Positions 24,093 through 58,125 of a DNA stretch of 64,000 nt are shown here, one piece after another. The first letter of the stretch is position 1; the number at the start of each line of letters is the position of its first letter. A program made the translations under genes and the position numbers. The notes under the pieces are model-generated. The model saw only the letters and a list, made by a program, of their open reading frames with translations, was not told where the DNA came from and ran no database searches. Origin of the DNA: Tetrahymena thermophila SB210 (lineage: Eukaryota > Ciliophora > Oligohymenophorea > Hymenostomatida > Tetrahymenidae); assembly GCF_000189635.1 (NCBI RefSeq), contig NW_002476434.1, positions 992,001-1,056,000 on the forward strand, written 5' to 3'.

Positions 24093-26203
24093 TCATTGCA
24101 GTGTCTTTAATGACCTTTTTAAAAAGAAAAAAGCTAGAATAAGATAACCCAAAAACATTAGGCATAAATAACCAACTGCTTCCCATTTTGTAAATTAAAT
24201 ATTTTCTGCTTCAATAGGATTAGGTATAAAATAAGTTTGCTCATATTCATTTCTAACAAATGCTTGATATGCGTAATTAAAAGGGGAAATATACTATACC
24301 CATGAAATCCAGCTTGCCAAATCTCCACTAATTAATTAAATTAATAAAATTATAAAGGTACTTTAGTTTAAAAAATCATTTACCTATTCTTATAAAATCC
24401 TGAGAAAGGGAACAATGGTAAAGTTATCAATTAAGCTACACCATATGCTAAATTTGGATCTTTAAATAAACAACCTTCAAAATATCCAGCAGCAATGCCA
24501 GTAAATTATAATATTATCATAATTAAGTTGAAGAATAAGAAAGCTTCAAGATTGTTCCTCAAGCCAACCATCCAATAAACTAATTATTTTAAATAGTTTT
24601 AATTTATTATAGTTAGTTAATTAATGAGATTTACCTATACAGCAGAATATAATTGGTATTATAAAATCTGATACAAGATCAACCAAAAGCTTACCAAAAA
24701 AGTAAGGGAATATTTTATATAATTTTGAATTTTCTTCTCTTAAAAAAACCTATCTTTCTGTAGGAAAAGATAAAGTAGCTGCATTCATAGATTCCATAAA
24801 TGCTCCTGTGGCAAGAAAGAATAAAAATCCATTTTTATTCCTTGCATCTACTATATTGTAAGGGTCATTCTCACCATCTTATTTGTTAAACAAAAACTCA
24901 GTAATTTTATAAAAAGGTTAAATAAATAAATTACTTGGTAATTAATAGTAAATCAATCCTAGAAAAACAGCCAAGATTGTAACTTATCCTAATTTAGCCT
25001 TAAAAAGGATAGGACTTCTTATTTATATTTGAATAGTTCTCACAACTATGTAATAAAACTACATATAGATAGGTATAAATTTTTAATTTGGGATAATTTC
25101 TTATTTATTTGAAAAGTTAATTTGATATTGAACACTGTCTTTAATTATTTCATCATAGTTCTTGAAATATAATGGAGTGTTTATGACATTTATCTGTTTA
25201 TCTTGACTCATTAGTGACATATAATAGTCTGTTATTAAATGTTATTAAAAATTATCACTAATTAAAAAAAAATTAATTACCAGCTGGATTTGAAAAAATT
25301 GGGCACTCAAAACCTTATCCTGAGAAATATTTCTAAATTTAGTTTCCACCAGACCCTTAATAAATAAATTTCCCATTAACCAATAGCATAATTCTGTCAA
25401 ACATATTCCATATTTCAGAAGACGGCTAATGTATAGTAAAGACAACTGTTCTCTTTTTTTCATGAGCAAATTTTCTTAACATGTCTATCAAAATGTATGC
25501 ATTGAAACTGATTTTATAAATTAAATTATTTTATTTTAAAAAATTATTTTTAACTGAAATAAATTACCTATCTAAACCTGAAGTTGGTTCATCTAAAAAT
25601 ATGGATTATGGATCACAGACAAGCTCGAAACCTATAGATGTCCTTTTTCTTTCTCCGCCTGAAATACCCTTAACAAACTATCCACCTATCTAAGTGTTTT
25701 AGCATTTTTCTAGTTTTAATTATTTAATCATGTCATTCACTAAATCATTTCTTTTCTTTTAACCCCCTCTAACTTTCATATTTGCAGCAAAAGTAATACA
25801 TTCTCTTACAGTCATGGTTTCAGTTAGTATATCATCTTGCATAACATAGTTAGCAAATGAAGAGAAGGATTCACTTGTGTAAGGTTATCCATTTACCAAT
25901 ACTTAACCCTCTAGCTCATTACTACTTAATTTAGTTATCCTCTTAGTTATAATGTTTAAAAGAGTTGTCTTACCAGCTCCTGAAGAACCTATTTAAGAAT
26001 TTTAATTAATAAACACAATAAAAGAATGATCTAATTATACCTAAAATAGCTGTAACTTATGAGTTTGGAAAGATGCCATCAATACCCTTAATAATCTCTT
26101 TTGTTCCTTCCCTGGTTTTTATAGAATACTTAAGATTTTAGAATGTAAAATCAAGCTGGTTTTGATTATTATTAATATATTCTTCAGAGTGAGTTTTATT
26201 CAT
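24093..26203 (-). CDS. ABCG-type half transporter H (lineage 1)
   Basis: ABCG half transporter. The ATG at 26203 begins MNKTHSEEYINN and the TGA is at 24095-24093. Six introns (26040-25989, 25567-25508, 25280-25229, 24934-24878, 24634-24580, 24383-24328) leave 1779 nt, a 592-aa protein. Walker [13 protein letters not shown], the Q-loop YVMQDD, signature [12 protein letters not shown] and Walker [11 protein letters not shown] are intact. The start of H and its upstream flank recur as fragment J at 31.8-32.6 kb, so H marks the left edge of the second segmental duplication. Substrate unknown. Confidence 0.9.
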
Positions 26204-31254: not shown

Positions 31255-31470
31255 AAATATAAGGGTTTGTTTCCTTAAGATAATTATACTAAAGGTCTCC
31301 AAATAAAATAGGCTTAATACTTTGATAATAACATATTTTCTAAATATCATCCTGCACTAGCAGTTAACTTAAAAATATCAGTAAAAGGAGATAATCAATT
31401 AGTTGATGATTTAATCAATAAAACTCCTTTAATTTTGAAGATTGTATTGTAAATTTCTTAAAAATTAAAT
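31255..31470 (+). pseudogene. Relic of a glutathione S-transferase gene
   Basis: Two pieces of the GST gene at 37495-38274 are recognisable. The segment encoding KGLFPQDNYAKGLQ...QYFDNNIFSKYHPALA (matching 37736-37833) is joined directly to the C-terminal segment encoding KGDNQLVDDLINK (matching 38165-38270). The N-terminal thioredoxin-fold part, including the CPY active site, and the middle helical part are missing, as is any start codon. A deleted duplicate from segmental duplication II. Confidence 0.8.
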
Positions 31471-31774
31471 TAAGTAAAAGTGAAAATTAATTTTTTTTCT
31501 TTAAATAGTATTTACTATATTAAATTATATTGTTTTTAGGCTTTATAAATTAAAAATTAATATTACAATCTTTATCAGATTAAAAATCACATAATCTAAC
31601 ATAAATTTCATATGTTTTGATTTAATAATCATATTATTTATAAAATTTTGATTTTAAATTTAATTATCTTTTAAAAATTTTAATATTTATTTATACTGTA
31701 GCTATTTCTCTGTATTTTATTTTTAAGCGTATATTATTTTATTTAAATTTTAAATTAATTTAAAATTATCTTTA
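31471..31774. other. Spacer between two gene relics
   Basis: AT-rich, no coding signal seen. Confidence 0.5.
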
Positions 31775-32142
31775 ATAATATAGTTAGCAAATGAAGTGAA
31801 AGAAAGACTCAATTGTGTGAGGTTATCCATTTACAAAACTTAACCCTCTAGTTCATTACTACTTAATTTAGTTATCCTTTTAGTAATAATGTTTAAAAGA
31901 GTTGTCTTTTCAGCTCCTGAAGAGCCTATTTAAGCAAATTTTAATTAATAAACACAAGAAAAGAATAATCTAATTATACCTATAATTGCTGTAACTTATG
32001 AGTTTGGAAAGATGCCATCAATACCCCTAATTATCACTTTTGTTCCTTCCCTGGTTTTTATAGAGTACTTAAGATTTTAGAATGTAAAATCAAGTCGGTT
32101 TTGATTATTATTAATATATTCTTCAGAATTCGTTTTAACTAT
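31775..32142 (-). pseudogene. 5' fragment J of a lineage-1 ABCG gene
   Basis: Matches the first exons of H (25846-26203): N-terminal region, intron 1 and the Walker A region onward. It then stops, so signature, Walker B and the whole membrane domain are missing. The would-be start codon reads ATA at 32142 where H has ATG. Walker A reads SSGAEKTT, with Glu in place of the invariant Gly. The upstream flank (32150-32560) still matches the flank of H, showing that promoter and gene start were copied together. Confidence 0.85.
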
Positions 32143-33245
32143 TTTTTGATTTTTTAAAATTTTATTATTTTTAAATTTCTTTAACTAAATGCAAAATTTT
32201 TTTAACTGCTGATAAAATCTTTTTGAATTAACAAAATTTAATTAATTTTAATTACATTTAAATTTCTTCTTTTTTTCTATTTTTCTTATTTCTAAAAGAA
32301 AAAAATCAATCTTTAATATCCAAAAACTTTCTAACTGATTAGCAGTTTTTAATTTTTCTATTTTGAAAATAAATCTAAATGATTTTTATTACAAGCTAAA
32401 AAGTTGGCTGATAAATAAATAATTTTACCAAAAATTTATTTTTGAAATATAACTTTAAAATATTCATTCAGTTCTTTGCTCTATTTAATTTATAAGAATC
32501 TAATTCATTTGAATAAATTTAAAGGCTTTTAATCAGCAACATATCAATAATGATGATAAAAAATAACAATTTTTTTTTGAAAATTCGATTAAAACTTATA
32601 TCTTAAATTCTTAAAAATTTATTGTAAATATGTACTTTACAGAGAAATAAAAGCATTAAAACAAAACATGTATCTAGTTTTATATAATATATTTAATTGA
32701 TTCATTTATTTTATTTTAAGAAGGTCCATGATCTTCACTATCTTGTTTATCATCTTCTTTTATTATTTGAATTACCTTTTTTTTAATAATTATTATTGAT
32801 TGATAAAATAGTATTTATGAAATATAAATTAAATATTTATTTATTAATAGATAGGATAATATTAAATCAATTATTTTTAACATGGCCTTGATTATAAATA
32901 CTAAAATTTTGTTTTTATTTCTATTTCTGCTAATTTATTTTATAATTTTATTAAAATTAGCTATATGTATTATGATAGAGTATATCAGTGCAATCGCAGT
33001 ATATTCCAAATTTATTGAAAGTTGGTATTTAATTCTTGAAATAATAAAATTATTTTAAATTGTAGAACCAAAGTAAATTTTAGGAAATACAGTATTAATT
33101 TATAAGATAATTTGAAAAAGTAACAAATAAATATATAATTTATGTATGTATTACAAAGTAATTTATTTATATTGTTATATAAAGTAGTATAATTTAAAAT
33201 ATTTTTTTAATTTATGAATATATTTTTCTTGTATTAAATATTTAG
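32143..33245. other. Intergenic, 1.1 kb
   Basis: AT-rich; the first part is homologous to the 5' flank of H. A short run encoding acidic residues near 32730-32765 is not supported as a gene. Confidence 0.5.
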
Positions 33246-35409: not shown

Positions 35410-37494
35410 TTTAAATTAATTGTTTTATATTTTAATTTGATGAGAACTTTTTTAAATCTTACAATTTACTTAATTTGAAATTGATTATATTTAAAGAAAG
35501 GGATTCATTTTTAAATTAATTGTAAAACATGCATAAATTACTTAGTTTTTTAATTTCTTTCAAATTTCTATTAAATTTGACTATTTCTAAATTCTGATGA
35601 TTTGATAACAATTTAAGTATAGCTCGCTTTAAAAGATGTAATTCATAATTATTTTTGATTAAAAATATAAGCCAAAATTTTTCTGATATATTCTTTTTTG
35701 ATTATTATTTCTTTAATAAGAAATTAATAATAAATTGCCTATTTCTTAAAAAATACAAAAAAAATTGAAATATTCTGAAAGTGTTTAAAAAAGAAATCTT
35801 AGATTTTTTCTCAAAACTATTTCATATTATAAATAATTTTTAAAAATATTCATAAAAATAATAAATTAGAATTTAACTATTAAGAAATAATTTATTTATT
35901 AAAAAAATGAGAAGCTGCCTAATTTCTTCAATTTATATTAATTTCCAAACTTTTGTAGAAAAGATAAATATTTTAATATATTAATGGTATTTTATTATAA
36001 ATAAAATAAACAAGATATTGAGCTTTAAAATAATATTTTATATATTTCTATCAATTTATATAAACATAATCTACATAAGTGAATTGGCTAATTTTTTAAA
36101 TTCATTACAGATGCACTTATTATTAAATTTTCACAACTGATTCTATTTAATCAAAATTTTTTGAATGCTAGAATTTCATTTATCATTTAATTAAAAATAA
36201 TGTGATACCCAGCTATCTCATTTTAATTTATTTCCTGAAATGAATATCACTTTAACAATATAAAATATGTAACCTAACAATAATTAAAGCAATTATTCTG
36301 GTAAGATATTTATCTAATAAATAATTACATATTGTATGGTAAAGAATTAGCTAAATTTTAGCTACTTAAAAGATGTATCAGATAAACTACTTGATAATTA
36401 TTAAATTAACCATGCTTAAATTTCAGGATTTAAATTATCATTTTTAAAATTAAATTCTGTAATTGTATTGTCGAGAGATATATCTTATCTATTTTTATTA
36501 ATTGTTTTTAAGTTCGTCTATTTTATTTTATTAAGCTAGACATTTGTATGAAATTTTTTGTTATTATTTAATTAATTTCGTTTATATATTTTGTAATAAT
36601 TTATCAGAATTAATATTTTAAGAAATCAAAAGATTAAATAAGATTAAATTAAAAAACATTTTTTAAAGTGAATATAAGAATAATATAGTGAATCAATTTA
36701 AAGGTTAGTTAGAAGATCGAAATGATAAATTAAAAATTTATTTTAAGTTTACATTTATCTAATTTTTAGAAATCCAATTACAAAACATAAACTCTTCTTA
36801 TTTAATATTCTAAAAGTTCTATTATAAATTTTTACAACAAAAATAAATTAAATGTTTTTTAGTTAATATGTTTATTTAGAAATAAATCAAAACTTAATTT
36901 TATATAATTAAAGTAATTTAAAAATAATAGCATGGAATATAAATTTGGAACTAATAAAACAATAAATTAATTTCTAAAGCTCAAATATTTGACATTAAAG
37001 ATAAGTTTTAGTTTTTTTTTGTATTATATATTTTAATTATGTAGTTCATAATTTAAATAGGAAATTTAGAGTAATCATAAATATCTTTACGTTGTTACAA
37101 ATTAGGTTTTATTTAAAAACTTATTTAAGTATTATCTACTCTTATTATATTTTTAATGCATTAATTAATAAATTTTTATGCGAATTTATTGATAAATGAC
37201 TTTTTTATTTTTAAAATAATAAATGTTTATGAGTCATCATATTAAAACTTATCTTCAAAAATAAATTCTATTTAGCAATTTAGTTATTTAGGAAATAAAG
37301 AATAGTAATATATAATTTTAATAATATTGAACATATTCTATGGATTTATTTATTTGAATATCCAGTTTAATTTTTTTAAGATAAATATTACTCATTAAAA
37401 AGATAATATTATATCTTTCTTTTAATTAAACTAAAAATTAAATTAATCAAAATACACATTTTCTATATTTTTTGGATAATATACTAAGAAAAGA
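35410..37494. other. Intergenic between K and the GST gene, 2.1 kb
   Basis: AT-rich divergent spacer: K starts leftward and GST rightward. It resembles 29206-31250. It presumably contains both promoters; no specific site was recognised. Confidence 0.5.
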
Positions 37495-38274
37495 ATGAAA
37501 AAACCTATTTTATATGGTTGCATAGTATGCCCTTATACAAACAAAGTAAGATTTGCTTTAGAAATGCTTAAAATTGACTATAAATATCAAGAAATTGACA
37601 TTCTTACTGGAAAAAATAAAAATAATTCTTATCTATAAATTAATCCTTAAGGTAGAGTTCCTTCATTAACTACGATTAATAACAAAAATTTATATGACAG
37701 CTAAGTGCTCTTATAGTACATAGAGGATGAATATAAAGGTTTGTTTCCTTAAGATAACTATGCTAAAGGTCTCCAAAGAATATGGGTTTAGTACTTTGAT
37801 AATAACATATTTTCAAAATATCATCCTGCACTAGCTGCATATTAAGAAAATAAATAAGACTTATTAAATAAGCTATAATAAGAAACATTTGAAAATATGA
37901 AATTCTTTTCATAGAATTCTGGAATCACATAAAAAATAAAATTAAAATAAAACTGTTTTTATGAAGGAGGAAGCATTCCTACATATGCAGATGTAGCAAT
38001 AATTCCTCATTTAAGAATTATGAATATATTTTGGAAGCACTTTTTAAACAAAGATTTATTCTAATCAAATAAAAATGATGAAGATGTATTATCCTTAAAG
38101 CAATTATATGAAAATATACATACATTGGAAAGTTGTTAAAATGTTTCTTTTTAATTTAAATAAATACCAACAAAAGGAGATAACCAATTAGTTGATGATT
38201 TAATCAATAAAAACTCTTTCAATTTTGAAAATTATATTGTAAATTTTTTAAAAATTAAATTAAGTTAAAAGTGA
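37495..38274 (+). CDS. Glutathione S-transferase-like protein (omega-like)
   Basis: Single-exon 259-aa cytosolic GST-type protein. The ATG at 37495 follows an A-rich leader and the TGA is at 38272-38274. Residues 1-75 form the thioredoxin-like domain: LYGCIVCPYTNKVRFAL with a CPY active-site motif (Cys as in omega-class GSTs), then INPQGRVPSL with the cis-proline and DSQVLLQYIEDEY, the glutathione gamma-glutamyl contact. The C-terminal part is helical and longer than usual, with low-complexity Lys/Gln insertions. Omega-type enzymes carry out thiol transfer or dehydroascorbate reduction rather than classical conjugation; the activity here is inferred. A deleted duplicate lies at 31255-31470. 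It converges with the large gene ending at 38579. Confidence 0.88.
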
Positions 38275-38578: not shown

Positions 38579-41500
38579 TCAATATTTACAATGCTCTTGC
38601 TCAGTAAATGAAAAATCATTCACCTTTTCAGCATTTATTTTATCAATATGCTGTTCATCAAAACTTTTTAAATTGTTTGCATTTTAATTAGTTAGTTGAT
38701 TAGTTTAATGATCATCGTCTTCTTCAATTATAGGAATTCCGGAAGGAATAAATTACAAATTGTTATTTAAATAATTATTATTATTATCAATTTCGTTTTC
38801 TTAAGGGCTGAAAACTTTAGAAGGATTGATAAATTGATTGTATAGTTGCTTTTTTTAACTTTATAATTAAATATGATAACTATCCATAATATAATCTCCA
38901 CTATCATATTTTTTTTCGTTCTAATTTTACCCACTGCTTTCAGGGTAAAATGAAGTAACATTTAAACTTGAGCTTTAAGTTTTAATGGATCTGCTTCTAT
39001 CATTTTCTTTATAGGCTGAGTTTAACTTAAAGTTTGAATTTACTAAATTTGTTTCTTTCTTGGAACTTGACAAACCTTTAAAAGTGTTTTTCTTATCACT
39101 CTCAAGCAATGGCATTTTAAATCTATTTAAAAATGAAATAAAATTTTTTAAAATTTGTATTAATGTTGAAATAAATTACGCTGTGTTTTAAATTTTTTTG
39201 AGTTCACTGTCAATAGCAATTTCAAAGCTCTTTCTTTGGTTTAAAAATGACATAACTTCAAAATAAAGATCATTATTTACTGATTCTTACTCAAGAGATT
39301 TCTTCATATTATACTCCTTAGTCATTTTTCTCCATAAACTTTTTTAAGAATAAAAAAAGATTAATTTAAATAAAAAAATAATTAAAAATGTTTACAAGAA
39401 TGATTAGAAAAGATGTTTTTGTCTTTGCTTAGTTAGAATCTTTCCTAAAGCATTCCTTTTAATTTCTTTGTAATTTCTTTTTTCCAAAACGCTTGCGCTG
39501 TATTCAGAAATAGAGAAAAGACCTTCATATTTCTGTTACAGGATTTTTTTAGAAGAAATCAGTTACAGTTTTAGACAGAATATAGTTAAAGCCTTCGATT
39601 TATAGTAAATATTTCCCACTTATCTTATTTAGTTAAGAGCACAAGATAAATTATATATTTGATTCTATTGTTAGAATTTGTTTAATACACTTGCAAATTT
39701 ATCTAGCTTAGTTGAATAATTAATTAATTTCAGCTATTTAAAGGCTTACTTTTTAGCTTCGAGAGCAGCATTTTCAACTAAATAAACTACACGAGTATAT
39801 AATTACTTTTATTTGTTGTTAAGATCATTCATAGATTGTAAAACTTCGTTCATTACCTAAATTTCTCCTTGCTTTTAAGAAGCTTAAATTGCTCTTTTTT
39901 TTGCTTAGCTGATTTCTAAATTTTGATATGTCTCAACATATATTTTGCTCATTTAATTTTCTTTCAAAATGTTGATAAAATGGAGATAATTTGGAAGTAG
40001 TATTCCATTTTTCAATATTTTAGCTAATTTTGATACAAATTATTAAGCTTTTCTCTTCTAAGAGCTCAATTCTTTCATTTGATTGAATGCATAGCTTAAA
40101 TATTCCTATTACTATCTGATGGAAATATTAGAAACAATTTACATAAGAGAGCTACGTTGCTAGCTGACCAAGTTAATTTATTCGAAAGCATTTTAAATTA
40201 ATCTTTTTAAGCCTAGTTTAGACTTACGATTTAATATATTTGCTAAATATGAATACCTCTATCTTAGTCTTTAAGCCATTTCTTCCTAAGAAATCAAAAT
40301 AGGTTGCTGGATTTTTATTGTACTCAATCTAAAAGGAGTAGAAGTATTAAGCTTTATCGTACGATCGGTGGAAGGAGAAGGTATGATTTACTGCATTCCT
40401 TATTATTAGTAGTTTTAAATTTAGCTAAATGAAGATCTATTGGCTTATTAAAGAGTTGGGTCTACTTAATTTAATTCATTCTACTGTTGCATTATCTCTC
40501 TCTTGCTCAAAGGAGATACGTATCTGTTATCTTACTCTATGAAGGTTTGTATTTGTTATGCCACAAACTGATTTGATTATTTGATATCTTGATAAGTATC
40601 TAAATCGTAGTCACGAATTGTTTCAAAAGACTACTTAATTAAATTATAATAAGGAACCCTTAAAATGGAGACTAATCTCCTAATCGTTTTAGTTTTAGCT
40701 TCACTGTATTGCTTTATTTTAATAAATGAATCAACTAGTAACCTTCTTTCAAGCATAAATAATTTAAATCCTAATTTACGAGAGGCTTTTTATCTTATTT
40801 CTGCATTCTTGCTTTGCTTCTAAATTGAAAAAAGAGCATTTCTTTTTTATTTATTGAAGATATTTTACAATACCATGAAAATTACAAGCATCTTATTAGC
40901 ATTTTATTTATCAATCTATTTTATTCTAAGAAGTTTATTCCAAAAGAAATTAAAATTCTCCTTTTCTGTAAAATCTTTCATTTTTTACATATTTTTAACA
41001 GCTTTTTATATTGTTTGTATTTTTTTATCATTTTATTTTAAAATTTCAACACCATCTCTTAAAATTATTTTATTTATTAATTCTGACATATTCTGAATTA
41101 ATTTTTATTTTTTTATTTCATTTTTAATATAAGTAAATCCATAGCTAATATTTTATTTTTTACGATTATCAAAGACTGCTTTAAGCTTAACACTAAGCAT
41201 TAAGTAGAAACTTTTTGACTAAATTTTTCTTTGCTTGCTCTAGTAAGCATCAACTAGCCTATTGCTTTTTAAGTAGGTTATAGCAAAATTTACATTTTCC
41301 TTTAATTTCTTTTGGAAAAAGTTACTGAATAAAGAAGCTGCTAAACGCCTTTTAACAAAAGTGTTTTTACAAGCCCATTTGATCTAATTAAATGCATCAC
41401 TTTAAAGTTTTTATTGGCGGTTATTAAATATTTTAACAAATATTTCACTCAATTTTCCAAGTCTTTTCTATTACAAATCGTTTCTCTTTTATTTAATTTA

Positions 41501-44500
41501 GAATAACTTTCTGAATGCATCTTACTTACGGTTCTAAAATAACTTTTACAAAACCCCTTAAATACGGTAAGCTATTGCCTTGTTATTAAGTGATTTTGAT
41601 TATTCATACTTTTTAGCACCACTTTCACTCAATTTCTTAATTATTTCTTTGTTTTTTTAAATTTATTATTCTTAATTTAAAGATAAAAAAGCACTCTTTA
41701 AGTAGTGCTTTTATTTATTTCTCAGCAATGAGTTGATAGTTAAAATAGCAGCCCTCTTCCTAGCATTAGCCAAATAAATCTGCTTAGATGATATTTGAAT
41801 TTAGGAAAATGCTTGTTAAATTCTAGTTTTAATCAAATTGCAAAATACTTTTTTTAAAAGAAAATTCTTTTTGTTGTTACAATTTTCTAATTACATATTT
41901 AGTTTGTAGAGAGAATTTAAACACTCCCTCTTCTTTCTCTCAGCAATTTTCCTAAATACATCTTATAACTTCATAGCTAAAAAGTGATATTAGCTAAATT
42001 TACCCTTCACAAAATTTCTTGAAACTGTGTAAAGAGACCTTAAGTTATTGAAGGCAGTTTTTTTGTTCTAATATTCTTTATTCTATATGAAAATTAACAA
42101 AGATCTGACTTAAGTCTAAAGTGCTTTATTATCTATAGCTGCTCTCTAAATTTAAAAGAATGCCGACCTCTTTTTCTGATGCAACTAGCAATCAAGATGG
42201 TAAAACATTCTGTCAATCTTTTCCTTTTTATTAAATTTGCTATTTCCATAGCTACTGATTTTCATGAATGCTCCAACTAGATTACGAATTCTAACAGAAT
42301 TTACTACACGGCTTGCCATGTAGCAGACTAACTCGTATTTAACATAGATGTCAATATATTTAATCATTTTCATTTCCTTCTTTTTAAGTAAAGTTTCTAT
42401 TAGTCTATCCATTCCTTTTGATATTCTCCTATTTCTCAGCTCTTCTTAAACTTCGTTTCTTATTTAGTTCTTTTCTTCGTATATTAAAGGCTTTTTATCC
42501 TTTTTTTATTCAATTTACTTGACTTTATGAGACTCTTCCTGCTCTTCAACTTTTTAAACCTAAAAGAATTAGTTCCTCATTTGGTTTAAATTATTTGTTA
42601 TTGGAGACTAAACTGACACCAATTACTGCTCTACAATGCTATCCTATTCCTTTTCATTATAAAAAAAATAATAAAATTATTATCCTTAAATTTTTATTTT
42701 AAATTACTTGCTAAAATGGTCTCCATACTACAGTATTTTAGCTAAATTACTTATTTAAGTCTATAGACTCAAAAAGTTAGTTTCTAGTATTATTATTTTC
42801 TAGATAGCTAACAGTTTATCTGATGCCAGCTTCTTCTGCTTATCTCAAAAATTAAACAGGATTTAGACTAATTCTATGGAAATTTGCAGTATCTAAATTA
42901 TTTTAATGACTATTGTTATAACTGCTATTACAATTTTTAAAAGAGGGACTGTTGAATTGAAAACTTTTCCTTTATTCAAAACTTCTTTCTAATAATTTAG
43001 AATTTGGACTTAAATTAGAATTGTTTGTTGTAAATTTATTTGAAGGAACATAGCTTGATTTTATTGGTGAGGTACATACTCTTTAGTAATTTTTGATTGC
43101 TATAAAATATTAACTCATCTTTTTGTAATAAAATTCACTTAGTATTCTAGAGAACTATTTATCATTTCTGTTGCTGCTTTTCCTAAATGTTTCTTATAAA
43201 ATCTGTTAAGGTGAAGCTTTTTTGAGCTAAAATTTCAATTTTTTATTTTCTGAATTTTAATAAGAATCTTGTTGACTGTCTTAATTGGACTGTAAAACAA
43301 ATCTAGTACTTGACATGCTACTTAGTGGAGTTGATGATTGATCATTTTATTCAGATTAAGATGATTGTTCGGATATTTGAATATTATTCTACTCTTTTTA
43401 CTTTTTCAACGGATCTATAAATATTGATCCTTTTTTATCTAATAAAATGCTAGAACCTAACAAGCTTTTATTAATACGAGCTAAAACTTATGTTGAAGGT
43501 CTCCACTTTTACTGATTAACTATGCTAGGAATTAAATTATTACTGCTATTAATCTAAGTGTTTGTTTTTTCTACAGCCCTTGAGGTAGTTATTGGAGATT
43601 TAGATTGAGTTTTTCTAGCTGAATATCCATTTTATTCTATTAGAGGTATTCTTGTACAAGAAGAATACTACGATGCCAGCTTAATAAAAAATATGGCCTT
43701 TTATTTAAATTATTTATCTTCTATTAATTATTATATGCTAGCTATTTTCATGCATCCAAAGGCTTTGATAAACTATTTGCTTGGTATTTTTTGCTAAGGT
43801 GTTTCATATAAATTTAAGTATTGTTGAAGGTCTTCATTGCAGCGATTTGCAAGTCTTCCCTTTTCTTCATCATACTAAGTAACAGTTATTTATATTTTTT
43901 CACTAATAGGTTTCTTTTTTGAATACTTCAGCAAGGTTTAATGAGTATCTGGTTCGTAAAACTATATTTTCTTGAGGGCGAAAGACATCATTTCGAATGG
44001 ATGTATTCTAATTACTCTATGCAATTTGTTGAAAGCTATAGTATAGATCTGATATTTGTTATAATTTTTTTTAATCTATCTAAATGCTTGCTTCAAAGTA
44101 GCCATTCTAACTAATTCATAGTTTTTAGTAACAACTAAATCAAGTAAGCGATTTCTACGTATTTAAGAAATACTAATTGGCTTTTTTTTTGTGGATTGCT
44201 TATCATCAATATCAGATATACTTCTTAGCCCTCTTTTGGCTGTCTTTAATTAATCTGGAGTTTTTTATAATCGAGATTTATCCAGTTGGCTTTGCAGATT
44301 TTATGATTTAAAAAGGATGCTTTACGATTGCAGCATAGAATTATTCTAGCTGTTATTATTAGATATCTAATTAATCTAGCTTAAATTGATAGATTAAGGA
44401 ATAATGAAGTCTTAATTGAAATTCTAAACACTGTGTATGCTACTTGACAATATTTCGCTTGCATTTGAATTCTATATAAGGTGTGAATTGCTTTCATAAA

Positions 44501-44986
44501 TATGATTATTTTCTTTACTTGTCCTTATTGGGCTTACCTAATAAGTTATTAAATATCATGCTTTTTAATGCTTTTGCTAAATTACTATGAAAAAATTTAC
44601 TGATTAATTTCCAAAGACTGTTGAAGGCCTTGCCCTTTCATACCATTTACTTTTCCTTGGCTAAGGAGTTAGATTCATTTATAAATGCTATACCTTCTAT
44701 GAACCTTGTTACTTTTGAATAATCCTTTTCGATTGGCTATAAACTTAAAGTTAAAAGCTATTTCGTTTGCTTTTTTTAAGGTCTTTTTACTCTTTACTTT
44801 CTAAACGTTTAATTTATTTGTTGTTAAATTTTGTCAGCAAGAGCTGATTTCACTTATTTGTTAAATTATTCTTAATCTTAATTTCTTTTTAAAATGTTAT
44901 ATATTGTCTGGTAACGTTAACATTTTTCATTATACTTACATAATAACTTTTAGCTTGTAATTTTATGGCCAATTAGAAATTTTCAT
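38579..44986 (-). CDS. Very large helical-repeat protein of unknown function (about 2,000 aa)
   Basis: One frame, with TAA and TAG as Gln, runs from about 44850 down to a TGA at 38581-38579. It is interrupted by introns at 44600-44538 (phase 0, removing a TGA), 42707-42650 (phase 0), about 39400-39347 and probably near 39180-39130. The N-terminal quarter is Ser/Asn/Gln-rich with a basic segment (TKKKPISISQIRRNRLL). From about 42.4 to 39.4 kb the protein is a long array of degenerate helical units, each with an A-F-x-x-[LI] core and basic, Gln-rich surroundings (AFNNLRSL, AFSQIQIS, AFRKLFQIK, AFNQIKWA, AFKQLKLI). This is reminiscent of centrin-binding Sfi1-type or IQ-type repeats, but I cannot assign it. 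The tail is acidic/Ser-rich and ends EQEHCKY. The first exon is uncertain: an ATG at 44986 followed by a GTAAGT donor at 44939 is a candidate. Confidence 0.7.
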
Positions 44987-46643: not shown

Positions 46644-47774
46644 ATGAGTAATAAATTTGAATATCATCTATAAAATCGATTAAATTTAGATCCTCTTAGA
46701 GCAACATGTCTGCGATATGCAAAGACTTTTTCTAAAGTGGAACATTAATTTTAAAATAAAGTCTTCTTTTAGTTCGATTCTGAGGGAGTTTTGTTAAAAG
46801 CTTTAGATAGGAATTCGCTTAATATCGCCTAAAAGTAGTTCATGCAATTGAGTAAAGTAAATTAGATAGAGATATTGACATATAATGTAGACGAAGAAGA
46901 ATATAAATAAGTTATCTAAAGAGATATTAAAAATTCTAATAAGTATAGTAAATGCTTCATGTAGTTAATCACATATGAGGCATTCAAAAGTATTGCATAA
47001 TAATTAAAAAATTTTGGGTATGAAGAACCGATGAAGTTATATGAAAAATATATGAAATCTCATCCAAAATTTTCATTTTTACTTTGTAATGAATAATAAT
47101 TTACAAGTGTAAAGGCAGATTTGCTCAAGCTTTTCAAGGGGAGAAGCCATTCTTAATCTGCAGCAATGACATAAAATTAATTTTCATCATCAAGCCATTT
47201 ATCTACTTAAAGTCTAGGGGGCAATTCTCAGTAAGCGATAAACTATGGGTCAAACAAAGATTCTTTTAATTAGTCATAAATTTAATAAAAGATTTTATAA
47301 TGCGGATTTAATAGTATAGCAAGCAATGCCTAAAGCAGTGCAATATAAAAGTCAAAAAGCGATAATACATATTTAGCTGGCAGTAAAGGTAATTAAATAT
47401 ATAAATAAATGTTAGTTATTAAACAGAGAGAAATTAAATAAAATAAACTCTCTTTTCTTAGTTTTAACATTCTTAATTTAGATTCACAAGTAATCTAATC
47501 TAATATAATATAATTAATTTCATTCTCAATAAATCTAAAATATAACTTAAATTAAATAAATCAATACATTCCAATCATAAAATACTGTTTAAAATCATTA
47601 GCTCTTTCCAAATCATTTTATATTTGCAAAATGAATTATCTTAAATTTTAGGAAATGTCTTAGCTGTTAAATTCATGCATTCATTCATTAATTCTTTACT
47701 CTTAAAGTTTTTCAGCAAATAAATAAATTAAAAAGTTAGTAGAAATATCAAAAATAGTCTGGCTATCAAATTGA
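46644..47774 (+). CDS. Protein X1, unknown family, paralogue of X2
   Basis: The ATG is at 46644, with a TGA in frame just upstream. The frame is open to a TGA at 47772-47774 (376 codons), but coding character fades after about 47391, where AAAG/GTAATTAAAT looks like a splice donor; the true 3' end is therefore uncertain. Residues about 14-170 align without gaps to X2 at 54465-55274: shared features include LxxxRAxCL, VxFxFDxxGxxLxAxDxxSL, IxILTxxxxxEYK-like, and GYxEPxxxYE followed by FxxLxC. The remainder is Ser/Gln-rich. The alternating strand and helix pattern ending in SL..A.. vaguely recalls KH-type modules; this is only a suggestion. The pseudokinase gene PK1 starts about 0.4-0.8 kb downstream on the same strand. 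Confidence 0.65.
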
Positions 47775-48154
47775 ATGATTAAAATTTGGCAAAACATTTG
47801 TATTTGATTTAAAATTATCTATAGATAGAACAGTATTTTCAAATAGATTAAATAAATTAAGATGAATTTAGCTGTGTTTTTTATTCATTAGTCAATTTTT
47901 ACCTTATTATTACTAATTTTTGCCTCTGATTAATAATTTAATTTTAAAGAAAAAATTTATATTTTTTTAATTTATCGAGATTTTTATTTTTTTGGCAAAT
48001 CAAATCAAACAAATTATTTATTGAGAACAAAAGCAAAATGCATTTATTTCATTTACAAAATAGACTACAATTGAACACTTTCCTCTTGTTTGTTTATCAA
48101 ATAGTAATAATATTATTTTAAATATTAGGTGCTCTGTTGAATTAGAATAAGAAT

Positions 48155-51085
48155 ATGAATGCGCATTAGTAATAATAGATTAATTCTAGGCAATAAGATA
48201 ATAAGTAATAAAAAATCAATAAGATTAATTTTAATAGCTAATAAAACCAATAGGATTAATATACTAAGGTAGAGTATGTAAAAAAAGAAAAAAGTAACAA
48301 ATCACAAACAGACTTGTGTTAAAATAATAATTATAAAATGAATAATAACAAAAATAAATTTGATAGTAATGATTCAATAAATAACGATATTTATACATCA
48401 GATGAAGAACGCAGTAATAGCTGCAATAGATAGAACAATAAAAATAATTAAAGATTTAGAAATATGTATTAAAATAATGAAAGAAATAATCGAGGATATC
48501 CTGTTTAGTCGCAGTCTCTCAATCATTAACATAATTATAATAATTAAAAATCATATTTCATAAAAAGAGATCTGCAAAGTTATAGCAAGACAGGCACTGA
48601 CACTACAACAACAGGAAGTCACCATGAATTAGATGGAAATGTAAAGAAGTAATAGTAAAATTATTATGATTATGATGATTAGGATGAATATTATGAAAAT
48701 AACTATGACGATTAGAATGAATTTAATAAAATAAATGATTCAACTGATGTATTAGATACAAATGCAGAAGAAAATCAAGTTGAGTACCATTTTTAGAATG
48801 AAATTTTTCATAAAGTTTATTAGAAAAGCAGGGGAAATCACCATAAAAAAAATATCTCATCAAACTCATCAGGAGTTTCTTCAAGGACTCCTTCACTTTC
48901 TAATTCAGCTTAGAATGATTCACACATCTCAGTTGAATCTGAAGATTCTAATTATTCAATCAAGGAATATATGTATCCTGAAGAGGAGCAAGACTTACAA
49001 AAGTACTAATTGATGAATCCTTAGGAGAAGACTTAAAATTTTTATAATCTTTTTTAGTAATAGAACAAAATATTGTAGGAAGAAGATGAAATTAAAATTT
49101 AAAATTAGATTAATTAGTACGAAAAAGTTAATAGTGAGAGCACGGCCTGCTCCTCTTCATCTTCATCGTCTTCATCTTCCTCTTCCCCAGCAACCTAATC
49201 TCCTTAATAACCATAATTATAATAATAGTAATCTTCCTCTCCTAATACAAATTAAATAGTAATATTGGTTTCTAAAAATTCGCCTCACTTAGATGCAAAT
49301 TAATCTATGAAATTTTATAAAAATATGAACAAAAGCTCAAAATAGTAAATTATAGATTCAAATAGTTGTAATGATTTTGATGGAAGTATAGCTAAGATGC
49401 AAGAAATATAGGAAATAATTAGCAAAGGAAACTAAATTATTTTGCTTGATCCTTTAGTATATTTGTGGCTTTTCATTTCTGGAAGAATAAAACCAGAAAA
49501 AGAAATAAAATTTAAAGTTTTTGAAGAGAATAAAAAGATCATTGCCGTAGAAGGGATAGATCAAGATTTATTAAAGCAAGCATGCTGCTTATCATACGAA
49601 AATTTATAAAGGATAGCAACAAATCAAATAGATTAACTTAAATAAAATGAAAGATTTATAGAATTAAAAAATAAATTTGAAATGCCTCATTCTTCGGAAG
49701 GTAGCGATACTGTATAAAATTTATCTAAGTAATCAAGCTAAGAAGAGGAGCAAGATGAAGCTAAAAAAATTCATAATAAAATTAAGAGCAAAAGTAAAAG
49801 CTTAATTATGCCTGGAAAAATTTTAGAGCTTATTACATTTGAGTAGTTCAAGGAGTATTTTAAGAAATTTAAAGTAAAACCCATAATAAAGATGTGTACC
49901 GAATAATTTAAATAAATCAATCCAAAAGACAAACAAAAAGGATGCATTTTGTTTTTAACTCCTTTCGCTCAGCATCAGTCAAAGTAAACCAACGAAGATA
50001 TTATTAAAGAAATTAGCTGCAAAATAGAATCAATATTTTGCCAGATTGTTAAGTTACAGTTATCTAAGCAGATAGTAGATTAGACAAAGCCATACTACTA
50101 GTATAGATAATTCGACATAAAGGATGTCAGAAAGGTATCTTCTTTGAATGACGCTGAAACAGCCTTCATATCAGAATACAAATATCAGACTTATTGCTTA
50201 AAGCAGTATCTTAAATTGAATGATAAAAAATTAAATAAAATTATTGCCAACTACCATGAATAGGCTGTAGCTGACAACCCATAATTTACTCAAACATATG
50301 CTATATCTGTAGTAGCAAAAGGCTCAGATCAAAAGGAAAAAGAACTCTATGTATTATCAGAGTTGATGTACATGAACTTAAAGAATGCACTTGACGACAA
50401 AGTTTTTAAAAATGAAAGTTAACAAGTTGAAGTTTGCATTTAGTTAGTAAATGCTCTCTTCAATCTACATTCAAAGAGCATAGATGAATTCAAGTTATTC
50501 CATGGTAATCTCAAACCAACAAATGTGTTGTTTGACGAAAATCTCTCTCTTTATTTGTCTGATGTTAACTTAGACCCTATCGGTTGTCCTAACGTTTAAA
50601 ATTTTAAATAAAGCTAATCCTCTTCAACATCTTTAACATTCCCAATCTAAAATATCTCTCAGAATATTAATGAAAAAATGATGGGATTACCTCAAAGCTC
50701 ATCAAGTAATCTAATTAGTAGCATGAACAACAGTTTTAGCAGTGTTAACAATACAACTAATTAAAATGGTGTCAACTAAAACTTTTACTGTGCTCCTGAA
50801 TTATTCAAAAGTGACCAAAAATTAAATAAACCATCTACTTATTCTGATATATGGAGTTTAGGCCTTTTGCTTTATGAGATCCTTCAAGGAGCATCTCTGA
50901 AAATTGACAATAAGAAAAAAATAAAAAAGTTGTAGTATGAACACTTTTCAAAGAACTTTGTAGGAATGAAGAACATAATCCAAAAATGCCTTTCTAAAGA
51001 ACCTCAGTAGCGCCCTTCTTGCGAAGAAATTCTCAGTGAGTTGTTAGATATACAAAAATCACTCAATAACTAAAAAGAAAAGTGA
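48155..51085 (+). CDS. PK1: large protein with C-terminal kinase-like (pseudokinase) domain
   Basis: Single-exon frame to the TGA at 51083-51085, 976 aa from the ATG at 48155. The frame stays open upstream to an ATG at 48038, and another candidate ATG is at 48338. The first ~330 residues are disordered and Asn/Gln/Ser-rich, including a run of 12 Ser at about 49151-49186. A middle region (about 49380-50100) is mixed helical. The C-terminal ~300 residues resemble a protein kinase: a VAIK-like Lys context (CLKQYLK), catalytic loop HGNLKPTNVLF at residue 783 (normally HRDxKxxN), DVN at residue 803 (normally DFG), FYCAPEL (APE), SDIWSLGLLLYEI and a final QRPS Arg. Loss of the HRD Asp and the DFG Gly predicts a catalytically dead or very unusual kinase. 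No transmembrane segment lies in the 976-aa form. Confidence 0.8.
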
Positions 51086-51903
51086 TTTGAAATATTGAAT
51101 ACATTTATATAAATTCATTCATCTAATTATACTAATCCATCATCCATCCATAAACATTCATAAAAAAAATCAAAAAACATATTGATTTTTAAAAAATATT
51201 CTTGCTTATTGGATAAAATATTAATCCATAGCTTAAAATAAAAATTAGTATCTAAAAAATAATTATATACTTACTCATGAGTAAGGAAAATGATCATTTA
51301 ATAATTCTAGCAATTCCATTAACTATGCTTTTAAAATTCCAAAATTTAAAGAATTCTTTTACCAAAATAAAAATTTTCTTATCCATGCATACAAAATAGG
51401 TTTGCTATTTATTTAATTTGCTCATTCCTTCTCTTATAATGATTAAAATAAAAATATTTGTTTTGTTTCTTTGTTGCATTCGTTTGCTACAAGTAATAAT
51501 TTAAAAAAACATTAAAAAAGCAGAAAATAACAAAAAGTATTCTGCTTCCTAAATAGTTACAATTATTTTATTTTACTTTCTTTCTTTCTTTCAAATTAAT
51601 TCTTCCTTTTTTTTATTTAAAAAATTTATTACAAACCTTTAAAACTAAATTAATTAATTTGTTCTTCATTTTAATTTAATAAAAAATATATTTAAAATAT
51701 TTCATTAAAACTAAATTAAATTATTTAAAAATACTTTCTTCAACATTATAAAAAATTTTATAAGATTTATATTTAAAATCAAAATGTTTGTAAAGAAATT
51801 GGACAAGCTAATTATTTTATCTAAAATAACTTCATTTATCATTATTGATTGATTTATTATGATTGCTTCAATAAAAATTATTTTTATTGAATTAATATTT
51901 TCT
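51086..51903. other. Convergent intergenic, 0.8 kb
   Basis: AT-rich region between the 3' ends of PK1 and the enoyl-CoA hydratase-family gene, with an ATCC-type run at about 51133-51151. No gene seen. Confidence 0.55.
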
Positions 51904-52760
51904 TCATAATTTTGGAAGTGGTTTACCACCTCTCCCTGCTTTGTTATTTACAAAGTTAGAAGCTCCTTAAGAAGTTTCACCCTTTAAGATGGCTAAAGAA
52001 CCTCTATGAAATTCTGTTTGGATTTGTTAATCGAAATTAATAAAGGTATTTTCATAAAGACTTTATCTATCAAGTTGCATGCAATATTAAGGGTTTCTTA
52101 TTATTTCTTTACAGAGCTCTATTGACTTCTCTAATACACTTTCATTATCGCTACAAAGCCTATTTACTAGACCCCATTCATATGCTTCTTACCCTTTAAC
52201 TTCCCTCCCTGTTAGGACCATATCCTTGGCTCTATTAAAACCAATAACCTATAAAAAATAAGATTAGCTTTTATAATAGCTAATAAATTTACTCTTTATA
52301 GTCTAACAGTGCCTCCATCTATTAATGGCACTCCAAATCTCCTACAGAATACTCCAAAAACGCATTACCTATTGGAAACTACCATGTCACACCATAAACT
52401 TAATTCAAGTCCTCCTGCAACTGCAAACCCTTCAATTGAACCAATAACAGGTTTTTTTGTAAGATATCTTGATATTCCCATAGGAGCTTTGCTCTAAAAA
52501 TGCAAAGGAAACATTTCCTATATTTTGCTGGGGTGCATAATTTAAGATGCTTCCATCAAATCAAATCCAGCACAAAATATACCATCTTTTGAAGCAAAAA
52601 TTGCTATAAGTGCTTAAGGATCGTTATCAAAATCTTAAAAGGCCTTCAATAATTCTTAAGCTGTTTCAGAATTAACACAATTTCTTTTTTAAGGTCTGTT
52701 AATATTGATCACAACAATTTTATTATTTTCAATCTTTTTTACTTCAATATTTTGATACAT
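51904..52760 (-). CDS. Enoyl-CoA hydratase/isomerase (crotonase) family protein
   Basis: The ATG is at 52760 and the TGA at 51906-51904. One 44-nt intron at 52292-52249 (phase 0) leaves 813 nt, a 270-aa protein of typical crotonase length. Family motifs in order: ININRPQKRN near the N terminus, GIFCAGFDL (first oxyanion-hole strand), KPVIGSIEGFAVAGGLELSLWCD (second oxyanion-hole Gly and the Glu matching ECH Glu144), then FCRRFGVPLIDGGTVRL. In the last motif the second catalytic Glu of classical hydratase (Glu164) is replaced by Arg, as in crotonase-family members with other or unknown reactions. So CoA-ester chemistry is likely, but beta-oxidation hydratase activity is not assured. The C terminus is PKL, which resembles a weak peroxisomal PTS1 signal. 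There is no obvious mitochondrial presequence. Confidence 0.88.
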
Positions 52761-54029
52761 TTTTAGAATTTTTTTTAATACAACTTTATCAAATTTTTTA
52801 ATTTTTACAAAAATCAGAAATATTATATCAAATATTAATCCTATGAAGTCATTTATGATGCAAATATTTGATTAAAACCAAAATGTCTGACATAAATCTT
52901 TTAGAAAAAACTGTATTTTAAATAATATATTAAAAAATCTTCATTAAAATAATTTGTTGTAAGTTGAGTTATCCTAATCTAAATAACATTATGATTTTTA
53001 AAAATATTTTAATATAATTTTAGTTTAAATTTTAATTCTTTTAAACATAATTGAAATGAGGAAGGAATTGAATTAATTTTAAAATAAGTTTGAAATTTTT
53101 TAAAAAGAAAAAGAAATTAACTGCTAAAAGTTTCAATCTCATTTTAAATAAAATTTGTTTTATTGTTTAGCTAAATATTTAGAACCAAAGAATAATTTAG
53201 GATTGCAATTTTTATTAAAATTATCATTTTTAATTATTGTTAATAAATAAACTTAGTAAATTTCTATCTTTTAAAAGACTGTTTTAAACATTTTTCAATA
53301 AAATAAATGAGAATTTCATATAAAAATACCATAAAATTTCTAAAAATATAATATGACATGTAAATATTATTAAAAAGTTTTAATTATCTTACCTTGATGT
53401 AAAACTAAAAATAAAACTGAATGCATCTTATTGTGTATTTTTAATAAAAAAATACTTTTAAAAGAATTTTAAATATTAAATTATCTATCTAATGTTTGAA
53501 AGTGAAATTTTATAACATAAATTTATTTAATTTCTTTAAAGAGATTTTTTGAATGATATTTTTATTTAAAATAAAGAACTTTATTGTTATATTTTAGTTT
53601 TAAATTGAAATTTCTAACTATTCAGTAAATTAAATTTTATTGAAGTTTTTATTTAAGATAGATAAGGCATATAACTATTTGAAATAATAAAAACTTGTTC
53701 AAAGTAGTTATTTAGTGTTAATAATTAATTTTGAAAATATTTCAATTTTGTTAATCAGACAGATATGTTTTTAATATTTTTTAGTAAAGATTTATGGAAA
53801 ATCAACTCAATTTATTATTTAAAATTATAATAAAGTGTTTTAGTTTAAATAGTAAAAAACACATAAATAAATAAGAAAAAGAAAATCTAAAAGGAACATT
53901 AATTAGTCTATTGATAATAAATAGTTCATTTATTAATTACCTTCAAGAGAATTATTGAATTTTTAAGCACAAACTTTCAAAGAAATTTTTAATTAATTAA
54001 TTAATTAAATCAATATTTGTTTAGCTTGC
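52761..54029. other. Divergent intergenic, 1.3 kb
   Basis: AT-rich, no gene recognised. Confidence 0.55.
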
Positions 54030-54464
54030 AAGCAAATAATCAAAGAGAATAGCATTCAACTAAATTACAGTATAATAAATAGTTAATTAGTAAGTGGTTA
54101 CTTATTTAAGAAGTTATAGAGGATTTGCACGATAAATTGGACATAGTCAGTAATAAGAAAAGCATAGAGTAAATAAAAGAGCTTAAAGAATTGACAGGAG
54201 CTGTATAGTGGAGATTTCATTTGATACAAAAATAACAAAATATCCATAAAATTATATAATATCAGAAAAATCATCAAACAAAAGCAATATAGATACTGAA
54301 AAAAAGGACTAAGGTAGAATTATCAATCTCTTAGAGGAGAATAGTATAGTAAACTAAGAAAAAATAGGATTTTCAAATAGAAAGTAATATAAAAAGATTA
54401 GGACAGGCAAATATAAGATTATTAAAATCATCTTTAAGGTGTTTAAAATACAAATAACTACTGT
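54030..54464 (+). other. Possible coding segment upstream of X2
   Basis: A plus-strand frame of about 145 codons, rich in in-frame TAA and TAG, reads as a basic, Gln-rich helical protein (KLQYNKQLISKW, LHDKLDIVSNKKSIEQ). It ends in a TGA just after the X2 start and has no good ATG. A GTAATA donor at about 54384 with the ATTACAG acceptor at 54472 would fuse it in frame to X2. Either a separate small gene or 5' exons of X2. Confidence 0.4.
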
Positions 54465-55274
54465 ATGATTACAGAAAATATTGATAAAAAATATCCACAG
54501 AAAAAGCAGTACTCAGACCTTTCAGCAGTTCGTGCAGCATGCTTATTTGTGGTAAAAGCTTTAAATAAGCTTGTAGAAGAGATGAATAATCAGGTCTACT
54601 TTGACTTTGATCAAAATGGCTTGATTTTAAGAGCCACTGATAAAGATTCATTGCAAAGAGCTAGTAATAAATTAGAGCACTGGAAAGAATAAACTTCGAT
54701 AGGTATTTTGACAGATAGCATTTCTAAAGAAGATTATAAAAAATTTATAGACTCAGACTTGCAGTCACTTCTCCGTTAAGAGAGAGCATTTATAAATGTA
54801 ATATCTTTTGATAAATTCTTAGCAGCATGCGAGTTTTTAGAGAAAAAAGGCTACAAAGAGCCTCGCTAGATGTATGAAGAAATATAAGCAGAAAAAAAGA
54901 ATTTTGCACTCTTGATGTGTACAAAGCATAGATTTAAAGAAATAAAGGAAAGGATCGAGGCAATGCTAGAGCCATTAAGAAAAATAAAAAAGAAAAAGAA
55001 AATCACTTCATCTTTAAAGCTAGCATCTACATGGGATGATGTTGATGACAGTAAATAAATCCGTTTTAATTATAAAATAATTCTCTCCCATTTTTAAATT
55101 TGTTATTTTGTGATTGCATTTTTAAAATTTCTACTTTGCGTAGTGGGGCACCAATTAATCAAGCAAAGCACAAAAAAATATTTTATGCATAAAAGCGTAG
55201 ATAGTTAGGTCATTAGAAAATTGATAGACGAATTTTATACATATCTCAAACAAGCAAATTGGATTTTAAATTGA
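54465..55274 (+). CDS. Protein X2, unknown family, paralogue of X1
   Basis: The ATG is at 54465 (MITENIDKKYPQKKQYSD) and the frame is open to a TGA at 55272-55274 (269 codons). Coding character is strong to about 55045, where GACA/GTAAATAAAT may be a donor with an acceptor GCGTAG at about 55140, so the 3' exon structure is open. Residues about 23-175 align without gaps to X1: RAACLFVVKALNKL, VYFDFDQNGLILRATDKDSL, IGILTDSISKEDYKKFI, GYKEPRQMYEEI and FALLMC. A basic run of six lysines with interspersed residues follows. No known domain recognised. It is followed on the same strand by PK2, mirroring the X1-PK1 order. Confidence 0.7.
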
Positions 55275-55313
55275 AATTTTATTTAATAATATAAAGTATC
55301 AATAGGGACTCAG

Positions 55314-55430
55314 GCATTAAAGCAGGAAAAAGATAATGTAGTTTAGCCATTAGATACCATAGGATTTCAGTAAGTAAAGAAGATAGACTAATAGGAAAAT
55401 GAAGAGTAAATAAAATAATTTAATTTTCTT
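55314..55430 (+). other. Possible 3' exon of X2
   Basis: After a GACTCAG acceptor-like site the frame reads ALKQEKDNVVQPLDTIGFQQ and then acidic Gln-rich sequence, which looks coding. It could be joined to X2 through a donor GTAGATAG at about 55197. Not proven. Confidence 0.3.
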
Positions 55431-56073
55431 TAAAATAATTTAAGGATAAGCTAGTTAGTAAAATAAAAACTACAATCTAAAATTTTCAATCTTTTTGTTG
55501 AGTATATTCAGAAAAAAGTATTTTTTGGTTGTTTAAATAAGTCATTATGTCATTCATTAATTCATTTTATTTTATATCCATTTGATTGTTTAGCTATAAT
55601 ATTATTAGTCAGTTTTTTGAAAAATAATTTTGAAGCAAATATCTTTCTTTCTTTGTTAGTAAGTAAGTAAGAAATAGCAATAAGAACAAAATATAACATA
55701 ATATAAAATAAGAGTCATAAACTAAAAAAGTATGTTGATTGATAGCAGTAAGCCATAATTATTGATAATATTCATAAATCACCTTTAATAATAGTGTTAA
55801 AATAATATTATTGCTAGTTTAACATTTATTATTCAAAGATGGAATGAATTAATTATTTTATTTTATCATAATGAAAGAATTTTAAAAGAATTTATATAAA
55901 CAAATTTAGCTCCATTAATTTTTGATAATTATTGAATCATTTAACATCATTAATCCTTTCATTATCCTAGTCATCTAAATGAAAATGTTAAAAAATATTT
56001 AGAAAAAAAAAATTATTGTTTATTTAAATATAAAAAATAATATAGTGTTATAATAATTTTTAAAATAAATATT

Positions 56074-58125
56074 AGATTAGCAAAGGAAGAATATAAGAAA
56101 GAATTATAGTATAAAATAAAAGAGTCTACTATTTATGAAATTGTGGTTTTAGAAATAGAGCAATGGCTTAACTATTTTCCTGAGATACTTCAGATTTTAG
56201 AGGAAAGCGAGAAAATTAAAAAATAGGATGATGAAAAAAATTTTAACATATAACTAATTAGCCAACATTTTTAAGCAGAAGAAACTAATTAAAATCACTA
56301 TATTAATAATAATAGCAGCTTTACTTCATAAATAGAAGTAGGATTTTTGCAGTTAAAAATTTTAAAAGAAACATTGTCGAATGAGTAAATAAAGTTAATT
56401 GATAAGATAAAATTAAAATGTGGGTCATATTTAGATCATATATTATAAAATAAGCCAAAGGAATTTGTAAATTATTTATTTAGTGAAATGGAGCCAGAAG
56501 AGAGAGAGTATTTTTAAGTACACACACTTAGATAATTATTAAATGACACAACTATTCTAATTGATAATTACCAATCCAAGCCCTAGATTTCTTAAATGAG
56601 TACTCGAAAAAGAAATATTATATTCAATTTAAAAAAATATATAGAAAAATTTAAGGAAGATTAGTTAGTGGTTATAGAAAATGATGGGACCATATATAAT
56701 TAATACTTCCTCATAGGAATAAAAAATATTCATAAATTATTTGCAGAAACTGTCGATAGGACTGAAATGATGTTTGCAAAAGCTTGTGCAACCAACTTCA
56801 GCAACTAAAATCACAATAATAGGCATCATAGTGAGTCTGATAGTGAGCACTTAGATCATTATGAAAGTAGAAAATACAGCTTAAATGGAAATGATTTAAT
56901 TTAAATCAATGAACCTAGTAATAACGATTAAATAAATTAGCATAATGGTAATAATTAAAATCACTAAAATTAGTTTAACAGCCAAAATTACCATCACAAC
57001 CATAATCATCATAATAAAAATGCAAATAATTCCTTTTAACAAGATATAGAAATGTAAATTTATAAAGCAGCTGTACTCTTTTTATAGATAAATTCAAATT
57101 AGATTAATAGCAGTAATGGTAACAACAGTAATCCTCCAGCCTAGTTATAATAAGATGAAATAGCTTTGACATAGGTTGAATCTTCATAACTAATTCCTCA
57201 TAAAAGTAAAATAAACTCAGTTGAATTCTAAAATCATCCTTATTATTTAAAGAAATTCTAAGAATAAGTACTAGAATATGTAATTGAGATAGCTTAAAAA
57301 AATAAAATGTTTTCAAGTAACAGTTGTATTAAATACCATAAGATTATATAAATAAATTCTCCTTAACAGACCCAAGATATTGATTAATCCCAATAGAATT
57401 ATAAAAAAGAGTTCGGTATTTTAATGGATAGAAAAGAATTTTGCTTAAAATACTTAATAGAAGAAGGTTTTTTATTTTCGGTTTATCAATAAATTGATAT
57501 TTCTATGAAAATAGTTAAATGCTTACACGAATTACACAATTAAAGAGAAAAAAGAGGAGCACACTGCAATTTAAAACCTAATAACATAATGCTTGATATG
57601 ACTTATAATGTATATCTAAGCGATATGGGAATTGACCCAAAAAAGAATGCAAGTTACTATTACTAATTTGAGAATAACTACTAAAATTCACTTATCATTC
57701 TTAAAAATAAACTTAAAAACTAGTTTTTAAAAACAACAGATTAAATTATTTAAACAAGTATTGAGAGTTATAAAAATCAACATCCAAATTTCGGAGTCAA
57801 TAATTAAAATTAGAATGTATAAAACTTTACGCCTGATGCACAATTTAAATAAGCATTCACATAAAACTAGAATATATTTCTTAATCAACTAGCTGATTTA
57901 TAAGCGCTAGGTCTTATTTTATATGAAATATTTACAGGGCAATCAATATCTGCTGAAAATTATTTTCTTAAAAATCACAGATAATTTATAAAGAGAACTT
58001 CTCAAGAAAGTCCTACTCCCACCTTAAAAATGATTTTCTCTATTATATTTAACTTGCTAGAACTTTAAATAACTTCAACCGAAGAAATTATTCCTCAACT
58101 TTAAGAAATACTTAACAAATTCTGA
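56074..58125 (+). CDS. PK2: large protein with C-terminal kinase-like (pseudokinase) domain (5' end unresolved)
   Basis: Continuous coding frame of 684 codons from about 56074 to the TGA at 58123-58125. No in-frame ATG lies between an upstream TGA (55933) and 56488, so the first exon is probably spliced on from upstream (an ATG at 55732 is in the same frame) or begins at 56488. The N-terminal half is helical. The middle has Asn/His-rich low complexity (HHNHNHHNKNANN). The C-terminal kinase-like part has HCNLKPNNIMLD at codon 497 (HRD Asp replaced by Asn), SDMGIDP at codon 517 (DFG as DMG) and LADLQALGLILYEIFTG (the DxWSxG helix with Trp lost). The APE motif is replaced (FTPDAQ). It shares the region CLxxLH...HxNLKPxN...YLSDxxxDP with PK1, so the two are related, but PK2 is more degenerate. 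Confidence 0.7.

Follow-up and report, generated by a model that had tools for sequence, protein, structure and literature searches.

A putative family of three multidomain pseudokinases with an undescribed N-terminal domain in Tetrahymena thermophila

Pseudokinases that have partners or domains specific to a lineage are already a known kind. Among described systems, ciliate kinomes are very large and have many unplaced, probably inactive members, and the part of the Ichthyophthirius account drawn on here gives 103 kinase genes whose only groupings are with those of other ciliates, besides 38 probable pseudokinases that could not be placed (PMC3341644). At the level of motifs, human PSKH2 carries HRNLKPEN, FAIK and DFG (PMC7586955, Table 1). 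The present analysis concerns three paralogues of T. thermophila SB210, two of which lie in a 64,000-nucleotide (nt) window of contig NW_002476434.1 (G000:C114:992001-1056000). They most probably each consist, in a single gene, of an N-terminal domain of about 150 residues (here called X), a long low-complexity linker and a C-terminal kinase-like domain (PK) lacking the catalytic Asp. Directly observed are the homology of the two blocks across the three copies, the order of the blocks and the motif changes.

The kinase-like domains resemble PSKH2, as it is tabulated, in that the sole loss is HRD Asp to Asn, the β3 Lys motif and DFG being kept. In contrast, PSKH2 has a glycine-rich loop, GTGSFS, which was not seen in the X-PK kinase domains, and the sections of that source covered here do not mention an X domain for it (PMC7586955). 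The X-PK proteins fall in the same broad class as those kinases of Ichthyophthirius that are specific to ciliates and its unplaced pseudokinases (PMC3341644). Tyrosine-kinase-like matches (TNNI3K, BRAF, IRAK3) and sequence matches (RIPK3, MLKL) were also found, but the X-PK proteins differ from the tyrosine-kinase-like group in giving no confident N-lobe model, in having lost HRD and in their other N-terminal domain; such similarity stems from the C-lobe that kinases have in common and does not show where the family belongs. No report of an X-pseudokinase architecture was found in the openly licensed literature on Tetrahymena and ciliate kinases, pseudokinases and KH domains, and as far as that search reaches, the X-PK family with its undescribed domain is new.

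The window has a G+C (GC) content near 22 %. Code 6 was used for all translations because long frames contain many TAA and TAG codons, for example 78 within the 1015-amino-acid (aa) PK1 frame. X1 (from 46644), PK1, X2 (from 54465) and PK2 all lie on the plus strand. X1 and X2 had been described in the initial annotation as aligning without gaps over about 150 residues, and the alignment obtained here covers 144 aa with 0 gaps and 30 % identity (E=2e-25). Searches of the genome (101,022,631 bases in 445 contigs) with X2, X1 and X3 returned 3, 3 and 2 places, respectively, all from one set of three, namely the two window copies and C122:642752 on another contig. A same-strand kinase-like domain lies downstream of X in all three, which upholds the suggestion that X and PK were duplicated together. 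By chance, a same-strand kinase-like candidate would be expected within 4 kilobases downstream of any one place in about 3 % of cases, as estimated from 1524 first-look kinase-like candidates in the genome, 123 of which were scored. The corresponding value for three of three, 2.7e-5, is not relied on because the copies are duplicates rather than independent trials; what counts is that the association of X and PK has survived at 25-30 % identity. In the alignments the paralogues are 24-28 % identical to the first copy.

In the first copy (G1), exon 1 (46644..47388) holds the X1 domain and the start of a Q/N/S-rich linker with a coding score of +5.8 per 100 nt. The coding signal ends at a GT donor near 47388; the stretch beyond it scores -1.5 per 100 nt. 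The region 47389..48128, with a GC content of 18.5 % compared to 28 % in the G1 exons, would be a phase-consistent intron of 740 nt (GTAATT...ATTAG), the alternative being the 3' end of an X1 gene followed by intergenic DNA. Exon 2 (48129..51085) carries the long low-complexity linker and the C-terminal pseudokinase PK1 (kinase part about 50090-51082); a run of consecutive Ser codons lies in this linker at about 49145-49190 on the plus strand. In the second copy (G2), exon 1 (54465..55050) holds X2, with an uncertain start codon and a frame open back to 54300, and its coding signal ends near 55050. Two putative introns (55051-55305 and 55406-56075) would flank a small middle exon at 55306..55405, of which 55308-55403 scores +8.7 per 100 nt. 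A simpler model with a stronger intron penalty skips this exon and places a single intron at 55051-56080. The last exon (56076..58125) carries the linker and the degenerate pseudokinase PK2 (kinase part about 57223-58122), recognised by PF00069, the match to PK1, the coding score, the gene model and the motifs HCNLKPNN and SDMG. The X frames had previously been taken for separate genes, a reading which the early end of the two coding signals does not favour, and the start of PK2, formerly set at 56488, moves to the beginning of the coding exon near 56076. In the third copy (G3), X3 and PK3 can be read as a single open reading frame spanning putative introns of 100-157 and 52 nt. All exon ends are approximate, because other frames also show coding-like stretches, though weaker ones, some of them upstream of each of the three genes. 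One coding-like stretch just upstream of X2 (54022-54453, plus strand, score 22.4), in a frame not joined to X2, might be a 5' exon belonging to G2, or else a purine-rich leader.

Whether each pair is one gene or two was assessed with a model of coding and non-coding composition and GT-AG introns, based on 74 coding stretches and a small non-coding set (12,030 nt), with the three X-PK genes left out of the training save for about 280 nt of the X3 exon. The area under the curve was 0.958 on 99-nt fragments, as measured on the training data themselves. At an intron penalty of -5 the one-gene and two-gene versions scored 177.5 and 166.6 for G3 (+10.9), 144.0 and 138.7 for G2 (+5.3), and 220.1 and 219.7 for G1 (+0.4 only), and at a penalty of -8 the differences were +10.9, +4.9 and +0.4, respectively. 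An earlier simple codon model (intron penalty -9, PK1 and PK2 included in the training set) favoured one gene by 9.5 for G3 and 1.3 for G2. As a control, the boundary between PK3 and the downstream aldehyde dehydrogenase-like gene gave one-gene minus two-gene differences of -3.7 and -6.7, with a slightly wrong start frame at the last PK3 exon and the same extra intron in both versions. That gene, identified by inspection of its translation, lies on the plus strand downstream of the third copy (L005 4316-5890).

It is rather improbable that X and PK are instead two adjacent genes kept as a conserved, co-expressed pair, in which X would be a protein of its own that partners the pseudokinase. When the third copy is modelled as two genes, the best version leaves 87 nt from the X3 stop to the PK3 start, a coding-like small exon lies within the G2 spacer, and the order X then PK holds in three of three copies. 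Nevertheless, the single-gene structure has several points to its disadvantage, most of them in G1, where the scores of the two versions are nearly equal and the simple codon model favours two genes (162.9 compared to 160.4, a difference of -2.5). The 740-nt G1 spacer exceeds a typical intron, and an intron of that size would be long since the mean in T. thermophila is 135 bp according to the portion of an RNA-seq study used here, which also describes many mispredicted gene models, including split and fused genes (PMC3274533). Splice sites were scored with an assumed consensus, the control was limited to one true boundary, and splicing is deduced from DNA. For the X1-PK1 pair, the DNA by itself favours neither structure, and the choice of one gene rests on homology with G2 and G3. 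Taken overall, each X-PK pair is in all likelihood one gene, the third copy being the strongest case and G1 the weakest. In the third copy nothing but introns would fit between X and PK. X is therefore most likely the N-terminal part of one polypeptide with PK, and not the separate partner protein first proposed.

The proteins predicted in this way have 1233, 911 and about 1015-1034 residues (G1, G2 and the third copy), with X at residues about 12-165. Pairwise comparison gave two common blocks, X and the C-terminal kinase domain, and no further common block below E=0.1 between the full-length predictions. No alignment was obtained between the linkers, in which Q, N, S and charged residues abound.

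The kinase C-lobe of PK1 matches PF00069 with E=5.5e-15 and 55.9 bits, and PK3 reaches 68.3 bits, against a cut-off of 31.7. PK2 alone gives 27.9 bits, below the cut-off, but its similarity to PK1 (E=1e-10) joins it to the protein kinase superfamily; the kinase-like C-lobe initially ascribed to both window copies is thus borne out for PK1, and for PK2 by way of PK1 rather than by its own Pfam score. In all three domains the HRD Asp is replaced by Asn (HGN, HCN and HGN) and the DFG Asp is retained. The Lys of Y-x-L-K is invariant in the three-copy alignment and is taken as the β3 Lys, and no glycine-rich loop was seen in that alignment. All three domains are pseudokinases through loss of the HRD Asp, where a pseudokinase is defined by loss of at least one of the HRD Asp, β3 Lys and DFG Asp, and they are very probably kinase-dead. 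Some pseudokinases retain activity, and the lack of activity is therefore a prediction.

The alignment of the β3 Lys became inconsistent once six other kinases were added; these were the retrieved loci that showed an H-x-[D/N] motif, and not a random sample. In the genome, two other kinase places score better against PK3 (1.2e-6 and 3.6e-6) than PK2 does (4.3e-4), and a genome search with PK2 did not recover PK3. Judged by sequence, the kinase domains alone are not distinct, and X is what unites the three copies. Structure prediction gave no confident N-lobe model, and the N-lobe of PK2 is barely recognisable. This last feature, together with the low Pfam score of PK2, would fit decaying duplicates, with PK2 especially a degenerating kinase relic without function. 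Such decay is very unlikely, as the exons of all three genes are open frames with coding-like composition and the motif pattern is common to three old paralogues. Elsewhere in the genome, a kinase-like domain at C60:43426-43671 with HLN replacing HRD and no recognisable DFG matches PK3 weakly, and is likely a further pseudokinase without known link to X.

For X, the initial annotation had named no described family, and this stands in Pfam and PDB sequence searches, apart from a weak structural resemblance. The X domains obtained only weak Pfam names, all under the cut-offs, and nothing below E=0.22 among PDB sequences. Pattern searches gave 593 matches in prokaryote genome contigs and 181 in viral contigs, of which none was confirmed as a relative of X. 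A MLKL_N match on the tail of the X2 frame (E=0.017) was under the cut-off and vanished when the X2 domain was scanned alone, and Gluconate_2-dh3 (E=0.069) and EF_assoc_2 (E=0.081) for the X1 domain were likewise under their cut-offs. A second X copy, which by eye seemed to precede the kinase domain in PK1, was rejected as its X profile score was no better than those of shuffled sequences (300 shuffles of each of three sequences); the predicted model of this stretch has a predicted local distance difference test (pLDDT) score below 50.

The predicted model of X, of moderate confidence, bears a weak structural resemblance to KH domains, those compared being from vigilin, ASCC1, IGF2BP3 and Nova-1 and the tandem KH of Krr1. 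Unlike them, X is without GXXG and without a Pfam KH match. The probable GXXG position, placed from the same model, reads G-Y-[EK]-[EQ] in the three X domains, and no Pfam KH family was obtained for X1, X2 or the X3 exon at E up to 10, in a search whose filters drop most matches above about 0.1. It is possible, but doubtful, that X is a degenerate tandem KH-like, RNA-binding module which would make these pseudokinases RNA-responsive, an explanation compatible with the single-gene structure. The fuller proposal of a ciliate RNA-binding pseudokinase family, in which a tandem KH-like module without GXXG is fused to a kinase domain having ATP-holding residues but no catalytic Asp, and a single non-catalytic protein would couple the binding of RNA to that of ATP, is unlikely.

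With the DFG Asp and probable β3 Lys kept, the pseudokinase may still bind ATP. We tentatively suggest that X would recognise a ligand, perhaps RNA or a partner protein, and that the pseudokinase, perhaps ATP-bound, would serve as a docking or switch module for a putative partner, the two working in cis within one non-catalytic signalling or scaffold protein. Only the anatomy of this scheme is observed, and the mechanism as worded is rather less likely than not to be right.

What appeared as a conserved gene pair is better regarded as one undescribed multidomain pseudokinase family, in which X, for which Pfam has no profile, can be tested as a candidate N-terminal recognition domain. An N-terminal domain that marks the members of a family is of help in sorting unplaced ciliate kinases. 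The case also illustrates how a single ciliate gene, if AT-rich and interrupted by long introns, can be mistaken for two.

Between the two window copies lies a crotonase (enoyl-CoA hydratase-like) open frame on the minus strand (51702..52760, PF00378 E=9.2e-25), as described initially; it is outside the X-PK family, and its limits are those of the open frame, not of exons. No crotonase gene was noticed beside the third copy, although the flanks were never scanned for one. Two long overlapping minus-strand frames of 1421 and 560 aa at 38582-44555 gave no Pfam match at E up to 0.01; they may belong to a single gene that an intron divides. Four scanned open frames in the minus-strand region 5879-32463 match ABC transporter domains, namely PF00005 at 5879-7180 and, below the cut-off, at 31381-32463, and PF01061 at 17130-18698 and 23633-24784, and the region is perhaps a tandem ABCG-type transporter cluster. 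On the plus strand, a 676-aa frame at 36244-38271 carries a glutathione S-transferase N-terminal domain (PF13417 E=8.5e-17).
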